The notes beneath the pieces were generated by a model, which ran no database searches, was not told the origin of the DNA, and saw nothing but the letters and a program-made list of their open reading frames with translations. Below are positions 6,779 through 33,403 of a stretch of DNA of 46,135 nucleotides, piece after piece. The translations under genes were made by a program, and so were the position numbers. The stretch's first letter is position 1; every line of letters begins with the position of its first letter. The DNA comes from Aquificota bacterium (GTDB lineage: Bacteria > Aquificota > Aquificia > Aquificales > QOAS01), in the NCBI GenBank assembly GCA_013153315.1, contig JAADES010000008.1, forward strand, positions 1 through 46,135. The letters run 5' to 3'.

Positions 6779-8651
6779 AAAGGTCTCCCACCTGCAGGCC
6801 CAATTCTTTGGCCCTAAGGAGTCTTCTCATTATTTTTCCGCTTCGGGTTTTGGGTAGTTTTTCCACATATTCAATTTCATCGGGCACTGCGATGGGCCCA
6901 AGGGTTTTTCTAACGGTTTGCTTAATGCTTTCGGTAAGCTCTTGGGAAGGTTGGACACCTACCCGTAACACAACAAAGGCTTTAATTCTTTGGCCTTTTA
7001 TTTCGTCGGGCTTTCCTATTACCGCAGCCTCGGCAACGTCGGGGTGGGCCACCAAGGCACTTTCCACCTCGGCGGTTCCTATGCGGTGGCCGGCAACATT
7101 AAGAACGTCGTCGGCCCTTCCCAAAATCATTATGTAGCCTTCTTCGTCTTTGGAAGCCAAATCCTCGGGGCAGTAATAGCCGGGGATTATATTCCAATAT
7201 TTCTCGTAGCGTTCGGGGTTGCCCCAAACCGTTCGCAGCATCGCCGGCCAAGGGTTTTTTATAACCAAATAACCAACATGGTTGGGCGGCACGGGGTTGC
7301 CGTTTTTATCTACCACATCAACTTCAACCGTAAAGAAGGGTTTGCCGGCATAACCCGGTTTGGCCTTCATATGGGGCCAGGTTAGTATTAGGTGCATTCC
7401 CGTTTCGGTCTGCCACCAGGTGTCCACGATGGGGCACTTCTGACCGCCTATTACGCGATAATACCACTCCCAAGCTTCGGGGTTTATAGGCTCTCCCACC
7501 GAACCCAAAACCCTAAGGGAAGAGAGGTCATATTTTTTTGGGTATTCCTCACCATAACGCATAAACAGCCTTATGGCGGTGGGTGCGGTGTAAAAGATAT
7601 TTACGCGGTATTTTTCCACTATCCGCCACCATATACCGGGGTCGGGATAGTTGGGGGCCCCTTCATACATAAGGGTGGTTGCCCCGTTTAGCAAAGGCCC
7701 GTAAACGATGTAGGAGTGGCCGGTTATCCAACCAACGTCGGCGGTGCACCAATATATATCGTCGTCCTGCAGATTAAAATCCCATTTGGTGGTTATGTAA
7801 GTTCCCACCATATAACCGCCGGTGGTATGAAGAACCCCTTTAGGTTTACCTGTTGTTCCCGAGGTGTAGAGGATAAATAGGGGGTCTTCTGCATCCATTT
7901 CCTCAGCGGGGGAAATTTCTTTGTTTTCCTTTATGAGGTTGTAGAATTCTTTTTCCCCCTCTCGGAGGGTTTGGTTTTTATCTCTATCCCAAACTATGAG
8001 ATGTTCAACATAATCTAGGCCTTTAATAGCCTCCCTCGCGGTGGAGAGCAAATCTATTTTCTTTCCGCGGCGTTTGGTGTAGGTGGCCGTTATTACCGCC
8101 TTGGGTTTGGCGTCCTCTATTCTCATGCGGAGGGCTTCGGTGGAAAATCCCGCAAAAACCACCGAATGGATAGCCCCTATGCGGGCACAGGCCAGCATTG
8201 CTATGGCCGCCTCGGGGGTGTTGGGCATATATAGAACAACGCGGTCACCCTTTTTAATTCCCAAAGATTTTAAAGCCGAGGCAAACCTTCCCACCAGCTC
8301 GTTAAGTTCACCGTAGGTAAGTTTCTTTTCCTCTTCGTCCTCGTTTACGTAGATAATGGCGACCTTGTTTCTTAAACCCCTTTCGAGATTGCGGTCGAGA
8401 CAGTTATAACAGATATTGGTTTTTCCTCCGACAAACCATTTGGCGTAGGGATAATTCCACTCCAAAACCTTTTCCCAAGGTTTGAACCAACAGAGCTCTT
8501 TAGCAATTTTGTCCCAAAAAGCCTCTCGGTTTTGTAGGGAGCTTTTATAGAGAGTTTCGTAATCCTGAAAGTGGGCGGTCTTTTTACATTCCTCTTTAGG
8601 TTCATAAACTTTTTCGACCTTCAAAAGGTTTAGGTCTTTATCTTCTACCAT
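6762..8651 (-). CDS. acsA: AMP-forming acetyl-CoA synthetase
   Basis: Activates acetate with ATP and CoA to acetyl-CoA. The 629 residues are close to the usual 640-650. The adenylate-forming motif YTSGTTGKPKGVLH, the acetate pocket region VDTWWQTETGMH, the hinge LGRADDVLNVAGHRI and the catalytic lysine in PKTRSGKIMRRLL near the C-terminus are all present. The last is the site normally acetylated by Pat-type enzymes, so post-translational control is possible. It stands alone on the minus strand. A TATAAA box lies 7 bases before the ATG, and no Shine-Dalgarno is seen, which suggests a leaderless transcript. Confidence 0.95.
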   Translation of the reverse strand: MVEDKDLNLLKVEKVYEPKEECKKTAHFQDYETLYKSSLQNREAFWDKIAKELCWFKPWEKVLEWNYPYAKWFVGGKTNICYNCLDRNLERGLRNKVAIIYVNEDEEEKKLTYGELNELVGRFASALKSLGIKKGDRVVLYMPNTPEAAIAMLACARIGAIHSVVFAGFSTEALRMRIEDAKPKAVITATYTKRRGKKIDLLSTAREAIKGLDYVEHLIVWDRDKNQTLREGEKEFYNLIKENKEISPAEEMDAEDPLFILYTSGTTGKPKGVLHTTGGYMVGTYITTKWDFNLQDDDIYWCTADVGWITGHSYIVYGPLLNGATTLMYEGAPNYPDPGIWWRIVEKYRVNIFYTAPTAIRLFMRYGEEYPKKYDLSSLRVLGSVGEPINPEAWEWYYRVIGGQKCPIVDTWWQTETGMHLILTWPHMKAKPGYAGKPFFTVEVDVVDKNGNPVPPNHVGYLVIKNPWPAMLRTVWGNPERYEKYWNIIPGYYCPEDLASKDEEGYIMILGRADDVLNVAGHRIGTAEVESALVAHPDVAEAAVIGKPDEIKGQRIKAFVVLRVGVQPSQELTESIKQTVRKTLGPIAVPDEIEYVEKLPKTRSGKIMRRLLRAKELGLQVGDLSTLED

Positions 8652-20118: not shown

Positions 20119-20194
20119 TTTTTCCTTTCTCTGTTTTTCTTTTTATCTTAAAAATTTACCTATTATCCTATATTAGTCTCCTAAGAGAAGTTAA

Positions 20195-20342
20195 TTGTTC
20201 CCCCAAAGGGGCGGGTTAAACAATAGCACCCTTTCCTAAAGGAAAGGGGTTAACGCTTTGGGGGAACAGGGAAAGGGTGGCGACGAACATAATGCTACGC
20301 TCCAAGCGTAGCGTTTACCTATTTGCCACCCAAACCCGCCCC
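20195..20342 (+). ncRNA. Candidate bridge RNA in the leader of the IS110 transposase
   Basis: The 275-base gap before the transposase folds strongly. A 13-bp perfect stem pairs 20196-20208 with 20256-20268 and encloses a hairpin repeat (stem 20229-20236/20241-20248). A second arm pairs 20275-20283 with 20323-20331 and, above a 7x7 internal loop, 20291-20301 with 20305-20315. A further 10-bp match between 20208-20217 and 20333-20342 would make a pseudoknot or an alternative fold. IS110-group elements such as IS621 encode a bridge RNA upstream of the recombinase, with two loop-bearing arms. Position and architecture fit; sequence homology was not testable. Confidence 0.6.
20220..20258 (+). repeat. 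39-nt hairpin repeat (R1)
   Basis: ACAATAGCACC, then stem CTTTCC, loop TAAA, stem GGAAAG, then GGGTTAACGCTT. It lies inside the 13-bp outer stem of the candidate bridge RNA. Confidence 0.85.
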
Positions 20343-20392
20343 TACCCTATAAACGCAAAAAATCCCAAAAACCAAAGGCGGGGGATAAAACT

Positions 20393-21832
20393 ATGGAGAA
20401 AAGGAAACTTGCTAACCAAAAACATCAAAACAGCAAAGTAAAACGCACCTATTGGGGTGTAGATGTAGCTAACGGCTTTATAATCCTCAACAACGGCAAC
20501 CCTTGCACATTCTACCTATACATAGATGCTCCCAACATTACCCCAAAAACCCCCGCCAATAAACTAAAGGCGTGCAAAAAACGCACCAAAACCATAAAAA
20601 TTGAAGACCTTGCCGAAATAATAAAGCCCAACGATGTGGTAATCCTTGAACAAACGGGAAACTACGGAATACGCTATGCCCAACTATTTGCCCAACTCGG
20701 TGCAACAGTAATGCTCGCAGATAGCAAAATGTTCGCTTTTTTCCGCAAAGGGCGTAATGTCCACAAAAACGACAAAGTAGATGCCTACCTATTGCGTCAA
20801 ATGTTTTTCGACATAGAATTTAAGCACTACATACACAAATTTATTCCCGAAAAACACCACCTACGACAATTAATAAAAAGCAACCAAAAAATTGAAAAAG
20901 AAAGAACACGACTTATAAACCGCCTTAAAAACCTCTTAGCCGTAGCCCTACCTAAAGAAAACTACCATCACCTTGAAACCCAAAAATTTGTTAGAAAAAT
21001 AGCCGAAATAAAAGAAAAAATAGCCTTAACGCCCCACCCATACACGGAAACAATTTATTTAAGCCTCGAAATCTTAGAAAACTACGAAAAACTTTTAAAA
21101 GCCCAAACCGCCGAAATAGAAAGCATTATTAAAAATCACCCCGACTATGAGCTTTTAAGCACCATAAAAGGATTTGGAACAAAAACTATAGCGACCCTAA
21201 TAGCCTACTATTGGGACATTAAAAGATTTAAAACCCTAAACCAATTTAAAGGCTATATGCTAAAAGGAACAATAATAGAACAATCGGGGCAAACTATTAA
21301 CCGAATAAAAAACCTAAAAAGTCGCCCCGAAGTTAAAAAAGTGCTATACCTACTTTGGAAACAAACCGCCCGAAGAAAAAACAACCCACTAAGGCACTTA
21401 GTAAAACTAAGCTACGAAATAAATAAAAAGAAAGCTTGGATAAAATTCGCCGACAAACTTTTAGAGCTGGTTTATTATATGCTCAAATACCGCCTAACCT
21501 TTGCCGAGGCGGTGGAATATTCAGTTAAAAACAAAGAAAAAGAAATAAAAAACCTTACAAAACAACTAAGTAAAAAGCTAAAAGAAGAGCAAAAACAAGA
21601 ATACTTTAAAAAGCTTGTTAAGCTACAGCATTTAATAAAAAACTGGGTGGCGTATCAGGATACTGCCTTAGAACTAAAAGAAGGCGCAACGGAACTATGC
21701 CACCCAACACCTAAAACCTTACTAAAACAAACCTTAAGCCTATTAGAACCCAACGAACTTAAAACCTTAGCTATAAACCTACAACTTTTAGATAGCGAAC
21801 TAACAAACCCCCTAAAAGAAACCCTACAATAG
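20393..21832 (+). CDS. IS110-family DEDD transposase/recombinase
   Basis: A 479-residue recombinase. The N-terminal RuvC-like domain keeps D24 (WGVDVAN), E86 (LEQTGNYG), D127 and D130 (KNDKVDA). The C-terminal Transposase_20 domain has the GFGTKTIATLIAYY turn and the nucleophile S298 in IEQSGQT, so all catalytic residues are present and the enzyme should be active. The final 100 residues or so (from KNKEKEIKNLTKQL) are an extra charged helical extension not usual in IS110 proteins. The TAG stop lies within a hairpin repeat. Weak GGCGGGGGA-type ribosome site upstream. Relatives IS621 and ISPpu10 insert into REP palindromes guided by a bridge RNA. Confidence 0.92.
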   Translation: MEKRKLANQKHQNSKVKRTYWGVDVANGFIILNNGNPCTFYLYIDAPNITPKTPANKLKACKKRTKTIKIEDLAEIIKPNDVVILEQTGNYGIRYAQLFAQLGATVMLADSKMFAFFRKGRNVHKNDKVDAYLLRQMFFDIEFKHYIHKFIPEKHHLRQLIKSNQKIEKERTRLINRLKNLLAVALPKENYHHLETQKFVRKIAEIKEKIALTPHPYTETIYLSLEILENYEKLLKAQTAEIESIIKNHPDYELLSTIKGFGTKTIATLIAYYWDIKRFKTLNQFKGYMLKGTIIEQSGQTINRIKNLKSRPEVKKVLYLLWKQTARRKNNPLRHLVKLSYEINKKKAWIKFADKLLELVYYMLKYRLTFAEAVEYSVKNKEKEIKNLTKQLSKKLKEEQKQEYFKKLVKLQHLIKNWVAYQDTALELKEGATELCHPTPKTLLKQTLSLLEPNELKTLAINLQLLDSELTNPLKETLQ

Positions 21833-21864
21833 CACCTTTCGCTTTAGCGAAAGGGTTAACGCTT
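21826..21864 (+). repeat. 39-nt hairpin repeat (R2), contains the transposase stop codon
   Basis: ACAATAGCACC, stem TTTCGC, loop TTTA, stem GCGAAA, then GGGTTAACGCTT. The TAG of ACAATAG is the transposase stop. The stem differs from R1 on both strands while pairing is kept. Confidence 0.85.
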
Positions 21865-21901
21865 TTACAGAACTTAAACCCGACCTTATGGGAGGATAAA
21901 A

Positions 21902-22087
21902 ATGATTTCCTACGACAAAAGCATAAAAATCCGCATAGACAGCGAAACCTTAGAAGAGCTAAAAATATTGGCACGCATAAACAAAGTTAAAACCTCGGAA
22001 TTTATAAGGCAACTAATCTATAGAGAACTACGGAAAAACCGAGACCTAATAAAAGAAGAGAAAGAAAAAGCCTTACACCAACCCTAA
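21902..22087 (+). CDS. Small ribbon-helix-helix (CopG/Arc-like) protein
   Basis: 61 residues. The strand KIRIDSETLEELKILA followed by the turn and helix KVKTSEFIRQLIYRELR is a ribbon-helix-helix DNA-binding fold, which acts as a dimer. A strong site GGGAGG precedes the ATG. No toxin gene follows, so an antitoxin role is unsupported. Lying just behind the transposase and between hairpin repeats, it may bind the palindromes or control the transposase; this is inference. Confidence 0.75.
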   Translation: MISYDKSIKIRIDSETLEELKILARINKVKTSEFIRQLIYRELRKNRDLIKEEKEKALHQP

Positions 22088-22109
22088 CTAACCCACAACA
22101 CACCGCCCC

Positions 22110-22153
22110 AATAAAGGCAACTCTACTAACCCATTTAATAAAGGCAACTCTAC
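22110..22153 (+). repeat. 17-bp direct repeat, 27-bp period
   Basis: AATAAAGGCAACTCTAC occurs at 22110 and again at 22137. The second copy runs into hairpin repeat R3, and its GGCAACTC can pair with GAG...TTGCC beyond R3. Confidence 0.8.
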
Positions 22154-22190
22154 AATAGCACCCTTCCCTAAAGGGAAGGGGTTAACGCTT
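22152..22190 (+). repeat. 39-nt hairpin repeat (R3)
   Basis: ACAATAGCACC, stem CTTCCC, loop TAAA, stem GGGAAG, then GGGTTAACGCTT. An outer helix GGCAACTC/GAG-AA-TTGCC encloses it, echoing the outer stem of R1. Confidence 0.85.
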
Positions 22191-22234
22191 TTCGAGAATT
22201 GCCAACGGCCTCCTATTGACAAGGGGACGAGACT

Positions 22235-22273
22235 ACAATAGCCTCCTTTCCTTTAGGAAAGGAATTAACGCTT
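22235..22273 (+). repeat. 39-nt hairpin repeat (R4)
   Basis: ACAATAGCCTC, stem CTTTCC, loop TTTA, stem GGAAAG, then GAATTAACGCTT. The change CC to TC on the left is matched by GG to GA on the right, a compensatory pair. Confidence 0.85.
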
Positions 22274-22388
22274 CCAAGCACCCGCCCCCTAACAGGGAAA
22301 TAAGCACTCCCGAACTGGTTAAAAAAGAAATATAGCCAAAAAACCCAAAAAGAGCCTTTTTTATGGACACAAAAAAAGGGGGTATATT

Positions 22389-22547
22389 ATGGAAAGCTTC
22401 GACACCATCTTAAAACTACGCATAGACAAAGAAGAACTAAAGAAAATCGCAGAAAAAGAAAAAACCACAATGAGCGAATTAATAAGAATGCTCATTTATT
22501 CAAAAATAGGGGAATACCGAAAGAAATATCTCCCCAAAAAGATTTAA
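22389..22547 (+). CDS. Second small ribbon-helix-helix protein
   Basis: 52 residues: MESFDTILKLRIDKEELKKI, then a helix-turn-helix stretch with TTMSELIRMLIYSKIGEY and a basic tail. The strand LKLRIDKEEL and helix MSELIRMLIY parallel the protein at 21902 (KIRIDSETL, SEFIRQLIYREL), so the two are likely diverged duplicates. AAGGGGGT precedes the ATG. It is the last coding sequence before a 770-base noncoding stretch. No partner toxin is visible. Confidence 0.68.
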   Translation: MESFDTILKLRIDKEELKKIAEKEKTTMSELIRMLIYSKIGEYRKKYLPKKI

Positions 22548-22752
22548 AAGCTTCCCCTTTACCCAAAAAGGGATAAATTAAAACACCTATGCCCTTTCTA
22601 AAGGTCTTTCTCTTACTCCTCCCCAACGAGTGCAAATAAGATTTAGTAAAAACCCATCTATGACCCCCTATAAGGGAATATAAATCCTACTTGTGTTAAC
22701 TTTGACCCCGTAAAACCTATTAGGGGGAATAATTTCCTTCCCCCGGATAGAA

Positions 22753-22871
22753 CGCCGGTAATCCACCCCTCCGGAGGTCTGCCGGTAATCTACCCCTCCT
22801 TTTGGAACGCCGGCAATATGTCCTTCTTAAAGGAATGCCGGTAATCTATCCCTCCGGAGGTCTGCCGGTGG
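22753..22871 (+). repeat. Tandem array of 27-28-bp units, each with a small hairpin
   Basis: YGCCGGYAAT begins at 22753, 22780, 22808 and 22836, and TGCCGGT again at 22863, giving periods of 27, 28, 28 and 27. Each unit carries a variable palindrome: CCTCCGGAGG, TCC-TTTT-GGA, TCCTT-CTTA-AAGGA, CCTCCGGAGG. The head is conserved while stems vary in a paired way. There are no unique spacers, so it is not a CRISPR array. Confidence 0.8.
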
Positions 22872-22880
22872 TTTTATTAA

Positions 22881-22905
22881 AGAAAAACCTTTGAAAGGAA
22901 GGTTT
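22881..22905 (-). terminator. Terminator-like repeat identical to the uspA terminator
   Basis: 25 bases identical to 39301-39325. On the minus strand AAACCTT pairs with AAGGTTT and is followed by TTCTTT. No minus-strand gene ends here, so it may be a copied or mobile terminator. Confidence 0.5.
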
Positions 22906-22950
22906 AAAAAACTCCCTTTGGTGGAAGGTCTTAAAGTTTTTCCTTAAGGA

Positions 22951-22968
22951 GGAGCCAAAGGCTCTTTT
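22951..22968 (+). terminator. Intrinsic terminator downstream of the tandem array
   Basis: GGAGCC-AAAG-GCTC followed by TTTT. No protein gene lies directly upstream, so it may end a noncoding transcript through the 22753 array. Confidence 0.5.
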
Positions 22969-22982
22969 AATATTCTTTCATT

Positions 22983-23107
22983 AGGCCTACCTTTTGACTT
23001 CTAAGCCGATAAGTAGGCTGTCTATAGTGGGTTTGCTTTAGCTTAGTCCTGCGTGAAATAGGCCTGCACAGCGTCAACGCTTAGAAGGCTGAAAAAGTTT
23101 CGCAGGG
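22983..23107 (+). other. Structured noncoding stretch upstream of speE
   Basis: GCCTAC (from 22986) can pair with GTAGGC near 23014, CCTGCG near 23042 with CGCAGG at 23101, and AGCG-TCA-ACGCT forms an inner hairpin. It is richer in G and C than the flanks. No known RNA family is recognised. It could be a small RNA or part of the speE leader. Confidence 0.35.
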
Positions 23108-23108
23108 C

Positions 23109-23155
23109 GTGCTTAAACCCCGCAAAAAAAGTGTATTGTTGCGGGGTGCTATAAT
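23109..23155 (-). repeat. Divergent hairpin repeat (R7)
   Basis: On the minus strand ATTATAGCACC precedes and GGTTTAAGCAC follows a 9-bp stem (23117-23125 with 23139-23147) with a 13-base loop. Flanks and layout match the 39-nt family apart from the longer loop. Confidence 0.55.
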
Positions 23156-23315
23156 AGAATATTTTTTCTTTCGTTTCTTTTACCTAAAGGATGGAACTTC
23201 TACCCCCCTTAAAAGGAAAAATAAAGCACCCTTAAAATGTCCCTACAATTTTCCAAACTTGATTATTATTATCATAGGCTTTACTTTTTAAAAAGCTTGA
23301 CCACAATAAGGAACT

Positions 23316-24158
23316 ATGTTCGACATTCATTTCTTTGAGAGAGACCCCTACGCTCCGGTTAGACACTGCTACACCGTTTCCAACGTTCTCTATCATACAA
23401 AAAGCCAATATCAGGAAATTTTAGTTTTTGAAAATCCCTTCTTTGGTAAAGTCTTGGTCTTAGACGGGGTAGTTCAACTGACCGAAAGGGACGAATTTAT
23501 TTATCACGAAATGCTGGCCCACGTTGCCCTTATGGCCCACCCTAACCCCAAAAAGGTTTTGATAATCGGCGGTGGGGATGGGGGCACTTTAAGGGAAGTT
23601 TTAAAACATAAAAGTGTAGAAGAGGCGGTTCTGGTAGATATAGACAAGGAGGTTATAGAAACCTCAAAGAAATTCTTCCCCCAACTATCCAAATCCTTCG
23701 AAGACCCGAGGGCCATAGTGGTAAACGAAGATGGGGTTAAGTATCTCCAAGATTACGAAAACGAATTCGATATAGTGATAGTCGATAGCACCGACCCTGT
23801 TGGTTTTGCCTACGCCCTTACCACCGAAGAATTTTTCAAATCGGTTTATAGGGCCCTTAAAGAGGACGGAATTTATGTAGGACAAAGTGAGTCCCTCCAC
23901 TACCACCTCGACATAGTTAGGAGATTCCAAAATAACCTAAAGGCGGTCTTTCCTATAGTTGACCTCTACACGGCGGTTATACCTACCTATGCCGGTTATT
24001 GGTGGACCTTCTCCATAGCAAGCAAAAAGCATAATGTTAGGGAACCCAAAAGGGAGAAAGATTTCGAAACCAGATATTACTCCGAGGTGGTTCACAAAAA
24101 CGCTTTTCTACCCGACGAGCTTTACGAGAAGCTTATAGTTAAAGGAGAGTGGCTATAA
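23316..24158 (+). CDS. speE: Spermidine synthase-type aminopropyltransferase
   Basis: Transfers aminopropyl from decarboxylated SAM to putrescine or another polyamine acceptor. The 280 residues include the N-terminal GKVLVLDGVVQLTERDEFIYHEM, the nucleotide loop VLIIGGGDGGTLREVLKH, acidic VDIDKEV, the catalytic-loop DSTDPVG and the C-terminal TYAGYWWTFSIASK. Thermophiles often make longer or branched polyamines, so the acceptor specificity is open. AAGGA precedes the ATG. A long noncoding region lies upstream, and a YdjM-type gene follows after 15 bases. Confidence 0.93.
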   Translation: MFDIHFFERDPYAPVRHCYTVSNVLYHTKSQYQEILVFENPFFGKVLVLDGVVQLTERDEFIYHEMLAHVALMAHPNPKKVLIIGGGDGGTLREVLKHKSVEEAVLVDIDKEVIETSKKFFPQLSKSFEDPRAIVVNEDGVKYLQDYENEFDIVIVDSTDPVGFAYALTTEEFFKSVYRALKEDGIYVGQSESLHYHLDIVRRFQNNLKAVFPIVDLYTAVIPTYAGYWWTFSIASKKHNVREPKREKDFETRYYSEVVHKNAFLPDELYEKLIVKGEWL

Positions 24159-32246: not shown

Positions 32247-33347
32247 ATGGCAGTTTTAGCTGTTTCGGGCGGCGGAACGGGCGGACACTTTTTCCCCGCC
32301 CTAACCGTTATGGAAAAAGCTAAAGAAGAAACCGCTTTCAGGGAAATATTTTTCCTCGGAGACCGCCGGGGGATTGAATACCGTTTAAAAGAAACCCTTT
32401 CTAAGGTAGCAACCCCCGTATTCCTCCAATTGGAAAAGTTTAAAGGGGTTTCCCTCGCAAGGAAACTAAAGTTTTTAACCTCCTTGGGAAAAAATATTTA
32501 TCAAATCCATAAAGTGCTGGAAGGAAAAAATTTTATCTCCCTCCATTTTGGGGGTTATACGGGTGTCCCCCTCGGTCTATATTCGGTATTGAGAAAGAAA
32601 CCTCTCTTTCTTCACGAACAGAATTCTATTCCCGGAGCTACAAACCGATACCTTGCCAAGGTTGCAAAAAGGGTTTTTATTACCTTCCCCCAAAGTGAAA
32701 AATTTTTTCCCAAACATAAGGTGGTATTAACCGGTATGCCCCTCCGCAAAGAGGTAAAAAAAGCCAAAAACCTTTCAAAGGAGCAAATTTATAAAAAGCT
32801 CGGTATTGAAAAGGAACTTTTTACTCTCCTTATAATGGGAGGTTCCCAAGGGGCCAAGGCTATAAATAAGTTGGCTGTGGAACTTTCTCTTCTCCTTAAA
32901 AAGGAAGATATTCAAATAATCCACCTTACGGGGCCTAGAAATTACGAAGAAACCCTTTCAATGTATAAAGCGGCCAAAGTAGACCTTTCAAGGGTAAAGG
33001 TAATTCCCTTTTACCTGAATATGGGAGAAATTTACCGAATTGCCGATTTCGCTATTTCCCGCAGCGGGGCGGCCACCTCCTTTGAGTTGGCCTATTTTGG
33101 AATACCAACCCTATTTATACCCTTCCCTTACGCTATATACAACCATCAGTATCACAACGCTAAGTATTTCGTCCAAGAGGGTGGAGCTTACCTTATGGAG
33201 GAAAAATTTTTGAACCTAAATAAGGTGTTGTTAATATTGAAAAACCACCTGAAGGATAAAAGTCTGCACCAACAAAAAAGGGAAGCGATGCTCAAATCCT
33301 TCATTCCCGACGCGGAAGAAAAAATTTTAAAAAACCTTTTTTTGTAA
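32247..33347 (+). CDS. murG: UDP-GlcNAc:undecaprenyl-pyrophosphoryl-MurNAc-pentapeptide transferase
   Basis: Converts lipid I to lipid II on the inner face of the membrane. The 366 residues contain the N-terminal loop SGGGTGGHFFPAL, LHEQNSIPGATNRYLAK, the mid-loop MGGSQGAKAINKL and the UDP-GlcNAc site SGAATSFELAYFGIPTLFIPFPYAIYNHQ. It is not in a dcw cluster here. A divergent hairpin repeat begins at its last base. Confidence 0.94.
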   Translation: MAVLAVSGGGTGGHFFPALTVMEKAKEETAFREIFFLGDRRGIEYRLKETLSKVATPVFLQLEKFKGVSLARKLKFLTSLGKNIYQIHKVLEGKNFISLHFGGYTGVPLGLYSVLRKKPLFLHEQNSIPGATNRYLAKVAKRVFITFPQSEKFFPKHKVVLTGMPLRKEVKKAKNLSKEQIYKKLGIEKELFTLLIMGGSQGAKAINKLAVELSLLLKKEDIQIIHLTGPRNYEETLSMYKAAKVDLSRVKVIPFYLNMGEIYRIADFAISRSGAATSFELAYFGIPTLFIPFPYAIYNHQYHNAKYFVQEGGAYLMEEKFLNLNKVLLILKNHLKDKSLHQQKREAMLKSFIPDAEEKILKNLFL

Positions 33348-33403
33348 AGCGTTAACCCAAACCTTTAGGATTTGGTGCTATTGTAGGTAAAGGTGCTATT
33401 GTT
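33347..33403 (-). repeat. Hairpin repeat (R6) with a partial second flank
   Basis: Core 33347-33384 on the minus strand: ACAATAGCACC, stem CAAA(T)CC, loop TAAA, stem GGTTTG, then GGTTAACGCTT, with one bulged base. An extra GGTGCTATTGTT copy (plus strand) lies at 33392-33403. It begins on the murG stop codon. Confidence 0.75.

Follow-up and report, generated by a model that had tools for sequence, protein, structure and literature searches.

The window analysed here is a 46,135-nt stretch (positions 1-46,135) of contig JAADES010000008.1 from an Aquificota bacterium (assembly GCA_013153315.1), and it carries a putative mobile element of the IS110 group whose extent we infer from RNA loop matches as 20164-23317. 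All features are on the plus strand unless stated otherwise. The element is about 3.15-3.2 kb long and has the core trinucleotide TAT at both ends (20164-20166 and 23315-23317), with an uncertainty of 1-3 nt in the exact crossover or core. It contains the open reading frame (ORF) of an IS110-family DEDD recombinase of 479 aa (20393-21832), a structured 148-nt leader directly upstream of that ORF (20195-20342), and a second RNA hairpin inside the ORF (21645-21705). Judged from sequence, the element very probably belongs to a clade of IS110-group bridge recombinases in which the target loop and the donor loop are encoded apart, the donor loop lying inside coding sequence.

The recombinase product generated hits on the RuvC-like DEDD domain (PF01548, E 5.5e-9) and the Tnp domain (PF02371, E 7.9e-8), both above the cut-off, and a profile of its relatives matched the transposases of ISCro4 (9t56) and IS621 (8wt6). 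The predicted catalytic residues are D24, E86, D127 and D130 together with S298. In the alignment of relatives E86, D127, D130 and S298-G299 were invariant, and the region of S298 aligned to ISCro4; D24 lies within a conserved N-terminal G-D-V motif and was not scored as invariant, one alignment row starting later. The gene is present as a single copy in the genome.

The leader RNA and its target loop

The minimum free energy of the leader was -76.1, against a mean of -46.0 for shuffled sequences (z = -7.83; none of 200 shuffles as low), and the helices proposed in the initial annotation were all found where it had placed them. Arm 1, the 5′ stem-loop (20196-20268), is closed by a 13-bp outer stem, TGTTCCCCCAAAG/CTTTGGGGGAACA (20196-20208/20256-20268), paired at 13/13 positions. 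Arm 2 (20275-20331) consists of two helices, 20275-20283/20323-20331 and 20291-20301/20305-20315, with the outer stem GGGTGGC/GCCACCC and the inner stem TGCTACGCT/AGCGTAGCG, enclosing an exact 7x7 internal loop. The two strands of a pseudoknot, GGGGCGGGTT (20208-20217) and AACCCGCCCC (20333-20342), match at 10/10 positions. A search of Rfam gave no match at the gathering threshold and none meaningful at E <= 10.

Two homologous leaders were available for comparison, that of L010 (genome G001), a homologue in the same genus with 72% identity, and that of L011, located at a contig end in the same-genus search. The helices were compared singly, MAFFT having mis-aligned the three leaders owing to an inserted repeat. 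L010 and L011 have GCTCTCCCC/GGGGAGAGC as the outer stem (fully paired), CGGGGGTGG/CCACCCCCG as the pseudoknot (9/9 paired) and GGGGTAGC/GCTACCCC or GGGGTGGC/GCCACCCC as arm 2 (fully paired), each differing in sequence from the window. All four leader helices, including the pseudoknot, thus carry compensatory changes; the initial annotation had staked its reading on covariation across copies, and on this point the reading stands. The pseudoknot, which had been thought unusual for this class, is no peculiarity of the window copy, and its compensation in L010 and L011 argues that it is a conserved part of the window sub-clade. It was not seen in more distant relatives.

Arm 1 had also been credited with an internal loop, but this is not a guide loop. 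It was found to contain an inserted copy (20220-20258) of a hairpin repeat resembling a repetitive extragenic palindrome, which lies outside the conserved RNA. The repeat, ACAATAGC-variable self-complementary stem-TTAACGCTT, was counted 29 times in the genome, against 0 hits for the reversed control pattern, and has fixed ends and stems that vary widely among copies while staying self-complementary. Copies in the window are located at 20220-20258, 21826-21864, 22152-22190, 22235-22273 and 33347-33402 (minus strand); four are within the mobile element, and one of these overlaps the recombinase stop codon. The repeat was not found in the sister-genome loci, including the L010 and L011 leaders and the other relatives' loci.

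The guides of arm 2 match the sequences that flank the element. The 3′ target guide, TTTACCTATT (20314-20323), shows 10-nt identity with the left target flank (20155-20164), and the reverse complement of the 5′ target guide CGAACATAAT (20284-20293), ATTATGTTCG, equals the right half of the predicted target, with 10 nt matching the predicted empty target and 8-nt identity to the actual right flank, TATGTTCG (23315-23322), which comprises the core and the first codons of the spermidine synthase gene speE. The predicted target of the window element, TTTACCTATTATGTTCG, is thus located at the speE start codon. The left-side match between guide and flank is also present in L010 and L011 (ATAGCTCACT, AACTCTAA). 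Over 12 elements, the longest matches between each loop and its own flank summed to 105, compared with a mean of 65.4 and a maximum of 94 when flanks were swapped (0/100,000 as high), and each of the 12 elements whose leader could be read has its target loop there, in the left end.

Sites without the insertion were retrieved for four relatives. The right half of the L011 site, ATGGCATAC, had already been predicted from the loop of the RNA when the empty site TATGGCATA was fetched; G002, whose flank is 92% identical, has ...AACTCTAAGTTATGGCATATA... uninterrupted. The empty site of L072, TATAGATTATAACACT, is present in G061, G060 and G063, that of L073, GTATTATTATATCACAAA, in G059 (closely similar in G060, G062 and G063), and that of L069, GCATTATAATTCA, in G022, G026, G029 and G015. 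In these filled and empty pairs the insertion was scarless and fell at a specific short core, and long terminal inverted repeats were lacking. The pairs confirm in L011, L069, L072 and L073 the logic by which the insertion of the window element is predicted. The loop matches and the empty sites point to arm 2 as a target-binding loop, as Durrant et al. (PMC11208160) use the term. The initial annotation, which had named loops matching neither element ends nor insertion sites as an outcome that would speak against it, had called the leader bridge-RNA-like; that outcome did not occur. The part of this claim that stood is that the leader is a putative guide RNA of an IS110-family recombinase, strongly supported by loops that match the flanks and the empty sites of relatives; the part that did not is the whole bridge RNA, the leader apparently providing the target half only.

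The right side of the target is read by the 5′ guide in the window clade, and the left side by the 3′ guide. L067-L073 have the reverse polarity, which is that of IS621. One may speculate that a split guide would ease such polarity switches. For both the window element and L011, the target takes in the start codon (TATG) of the gene downstream. Insertion at TATG would leave the speE start codon intact, and the right end, ...AAGGAAC, would give a plausible ribosome site; together with the preceding AA it reads AAGGA (23308-23312), similar to a ribosome site, ahead of the speE ATG at 23316.

A hairpin in the recombinase gene predicted to read the element ends

No donor-binding loop was found in the leader; after arm 2 there is no further arm, just the closure of the pseudoknot. 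A predicted donor-binding hairpin (21645-21705) is located about 1.3-1.35 kb downstream of the leader, in the part of the ORF that encodes the C-terminal part of the recombinase. It has the outer stem GGGTGGC/GCCACCC and the inner stem GCCTT/AAGGC, in the layout GGGTGGC-GTATCAGGATACT-GCCTT...AAGGC-GCAACGGAACTAT-GCCACCC. The left end of the element, CCTATA(TT) (20167-20174), pairs with the 5′ donor guide, TATCAGGATA (21653-21662): the reverse complement of the guide, TATCCT(G)ATA, equals the left end TATCCTATA with one bulged base (9/9). The 3′ donor guide, GGAACTAT (21691-21698), shows 8-nt identity with the right end including the core (23310-23317), with its best match nowhere else. A composite predicted from both RNAs, GGAACTATGTTCG, has a single mismatch-free occurrence in the window.

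An equivalent hairpin is present in the 3′ part of the ORF in 12 of the 12 elements with readable 3′ ends, where it ranked first or second in stability among the approximately 250-290 windows of the same length per ORF. The structure derived from the alignment has 12 pairs, 10 with a double compensatory change; 91.3% of its cells were paired, compared with 61.5% after shuffling, and the covariation was 0.714, compared with 0.182 in shuffles and at most 0.221 when the structure was slid along the alignment. The 5′ donor guides matched the left ends at 67 of 72 positions in the 12 elements (shuffled mean 55.8; 38/200,000 as high), and the 5′ guide reads the left end in every donor hairpin with a scored left-end match. 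The loop changes along with the end: CCT-ATA in the window, TCT-ATA in L010, CTT-ATA in L076 and L077, CTT-AC in L067-L073 and CCT-ACA in L078. The 3′ loop matched its own right end over 8 nt in the window, L069 and L072, and unrelated right ends over 3-5 nt. A putative right end of L078 falls within an rlpA-like gene and was set aside as a chance match.

The recombinase message is probably both mRNA and guide, a naturally split bridge RNA in which the 5′ leader supplies the target loop and a stretch of coding sequence close to the 3′ end doubles as the donor loop. Expression and activity of such a system are predictions. One strand of arm 2 would pair with the left half and the other with the right half of the target TTTACCTATTATGTTCG, and the ORF hairpin would read the element's own ends, CCTATA on the left and GGAACTAT on the right. 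One recombinase dimer would be bound per loop, so that arm 2 would hold the target and the ORF hairpin the junction of right and left ends (RE-LE) of the circular element. Strand exchange, modelled on that of IS621 (PMC11208158), would take place at the TAT core. The predicted circular junction of the window element is ...AAGGAACTATCCTATATT.... On the circular form a -35-like TTGACC in the right end (23297-23302) would stand 17 nt from the -10-like TATATT of the left end (20169-20174), a putative promoter that agrees with the consensus at 10/12 positions (about 0.006 in shuffles). The joined ends would then transcribe leader and ORF together into a single mRNA containing both loops, which may be left whole or cut into two RNAs. 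Observed here were the anatomy, the matches of the loops to the target and to the element ends, the covariation of these matches and the relatives' empty sites; transcription, binding, a circular intermediate and the fate of the loops, on one shared mRNA or on two RNAs, are predictions.

Alternative readings and opposing evidence

If the leader read the target only, as in seekRNA systems, the protein alone might read the ends, and the ORF hairpin would be a translational or transcriptional control of the next gene. ISEc11 and ISEc21 can move with just a short seekRNA that has target matches only (PMC11187229), and in several of our relatives the hairpin stands just ahead of a small HU-like or ribbon-helix-helix (RHH)-like gene. 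Against this, the hairpin loops match the element ends and vary along with them, and the 3′ loop is conserved regardless of reading frame, which makes this explanation improbable. Slightly less probable again is a canonical IS110 bridge RNA with both loops in the leader, as in IS621, and an incidental ORF hairpin. The position of the leader, in the left end ahead of the recombinase, is the canonical one (PMC11208160), and the IS110 copies L020, L022, L025 and L039 of the same phylum have leaders folded into two arms. However, the leader of the window merely closes the pseudoknot past arm 2, its arm 1 loop is occupied by the pseudoknot and the inserted repeat, matches between leader and right end reach 5-6 nt in the window, L069 and L072 as against 8 nt for the ORF hairpin, and 12/12 relatives have the ORF hairpin with loops that track their ends.

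Conservation of a peptide (such as CQDIS...RQDYF), not of an RNA, is a further reading of the ORF hairpin, and the 5′ loop does always occupy the same codon phase, encoding QD/KD-I. The TAT of the 3′ donor loop, however, falls in codon phases 0, 1 and 2 across elements (those of L073, counted from its ORF start at 7894, agree with L072), the stems carry double compensatory changes, and synonymous sites are conserved: between the window and L010, codons for identical amino acids were identical in 13/14 cases within the hairpin and in 173/315 cases outside (P = 0.003), and the hairpin is the most synonymously conserved 14-codon stretch of the gene. The occurrence of the 3′ loop in all three phases and the synonymous conservation argue that RNA, not protein, explains the conservation of the hairpin, and a purely protein-based explanation is very unlikely. 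A leader structure that arose mostly by chance, through the insertion of hairpin repeats, and that attenuates the transposase and guides nothing, has next to no probability. One hairpin of arm 1 is indeed a copy of the 29-member repeat family, but arm 2, the pseudoknot and the outer stem are present in L010 and L011 without the repeat, and the leader loops spell the insertion site.

Several points weigh against a split bridge RNA. The window's own empty site was not found in five sister genomes, where sufD and speE are not adjacent, and the joined window site aligns only loosely to the regions upstream of speE in relatives. Target matches are weaker (6-7 nt) in L076, L077 and L078, and the model does not account for the opposite target-loop polarities of the window clade and L067-L073. 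The donor match of L073, whose recombinase has a stop codon, falls to 5 contiguous nt (7/8, one mismatch). The right end is known for just four elements, and the elements are related, so that the permutation P values are optimistic. The RE-LE promoter was seen in the window only, L069, L072 and L073 not exceeding shuffles. Finally, the 5′ donor guide keeps to a single codon phase throughout (QDI/KDI peptide), and a peptide constraint may add to its conservation.

Relatives and comparison with known systems

The further elements came from wider searches and were 37-43% identical over the matched part, among those scored singly against the window protein. In the tree the 12 split elements cluster together (support 100/99), set against the canonical-looking IS110 copies of the same phylum. 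L019 (G029:C1; also L123), deeper-branching and sister to this group, has a 447-aa recombinase, a one-arm leader whose 5′ loop GGTGTATATT resembles its left flank, and a strong ORF hairpin. It is likely to have the same split layout with both loops in the IS621 polarity; its right end was not found, and it was left out of the count of split elements.

The window element also carries two cargo genes for small RHH-like proteins, one CopG-like (21902-22087; Pfam RHH_1, E 0.0012) and a second small ORF (22389-22547; RHH_1, E 0.0037), both below the curated cut-off. Its non-coding right part has short direct repeats, GCCGGTAATC and CTCCGGAGGTCTGCCGG, at 22740-22870. The recombinase frames of L073 and L072 contain in-frame stops (TAA, TGA), and the ends and RNA hairpins persist; these are decaying copies. 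L069 (G016:C4, element at about 18.3-25.5 kb) and L067 are larger and encode HU-like, RHH-like, P-loop ATPase, transglutaminase-like, and basic or membrane proteins; either could be an integrated virus or plasmid that relies on this recombinase. Scans of viral contigs with the window protein, the alignment and L018 gave no match, nor did a plasmid search. A phage search gave one distant transposase, from Thermus phage Zuza27 (L122, PQ109074.1), a small phage with annotated coat and assembly genes whose IS110-like transposase shares 24% identity with L018 across half of the latter; guided DEDD recombinases may serve in phage integration. L012 (QOAS01000028.1), labelled as a Gammaproteobacteria metagenome-assembled genome, is the same contig as G001:C161 (L010), from a genome of the window's genus, and is probably mis-binned.

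The element shares with IS621 and ISCro4 (PMC11208160, PMC11208158; PDB 8wt6, 9t56) a DEDD recombinase with a Tnp serine domain, arms with internal loops that hold two guides each, one per DNA strand, overlapping at a short core, a target loop in the left non-coding end, and an RE-LE junction able to form a promoter (predicted here, in the window copy only). One loop reads the left and right target and another the left and right donor, as in IS621. In IS621, however, the loops lie side by side on a single RNA of about 177 nt from the left end, whereas here the donor loop is about 1.3 kb away in the ORF, and no contiguous non-coding RNA with both loops was found in the left end. By its protein and predicted guide logic the element is an IS110-group recombinase, departing from the IS621 definition in one tested feature, the loops not being contiguous. 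The pseudoknotted 5′ stem-loop of the window clade and the swapped guide polarity are further differences from IS621 and ISCro4.

RNA-guided DEDD transposases are also common to the IS1111 group, and the donor loop here lies towards the right end. In IS1111 the whole RNA is in the right non-coding end, accompanied by long subterminal inverted repeats, whereas the elements studied here have the target loop in the left leader in every readable case. As in the seekRNA of IS1111/ISEc21, a short RNA matches the top and bottom strands of the target, and the co-transcription of recombinase mRNA and long RNA with subsequent processing proposed for seekRNA systems is a further likeness. The available text of the seekRNA report (PMC11187229) describes a single block encoded in the non-coding region next to tnp and, in that text, no donor loop inside coding sequence. 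It also reports that the guide order is reversed between IS1111 and IS110; here the reversal is within one clade, between sub-clades. The engineered split bridge RNA of ISCro4 (Pelea et al. 2026, summarised in PMC13264000) likewise has its loops on independent pieces. That split is artificial, whereas the one described here appears to be natural and places the donor loop within coding sequence. The artificial two-piece RNA improves performance in human cells (PMC13264000), and the tether is therefore not needed in principle.

A natural split bridge RNA was not found described in the searchable literature, with bioRxiv and most subscription journals outside the search, and its novelty is provisional. 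In known bridge RNAs the two loops share one non-coding RNA. Bridge RNAs were predicted for 85.7% of IS110s (PMC11208160), and a split layout would explain how searches for a single non-coding bridge RNA could miss one. If the loops are truly split, the specificity for target or for donor could be swapped without touching the other, and the target loop could work in both polarities. The clade would offer recombinases with natural two-piece guides, with target sites at start codons and between genes. A clade with separate loops would mean that the physical bridge is dispensable in nature, as the artificial splits of ISCro4 suggest, and would allow a direct test of what the tether between the loops does.
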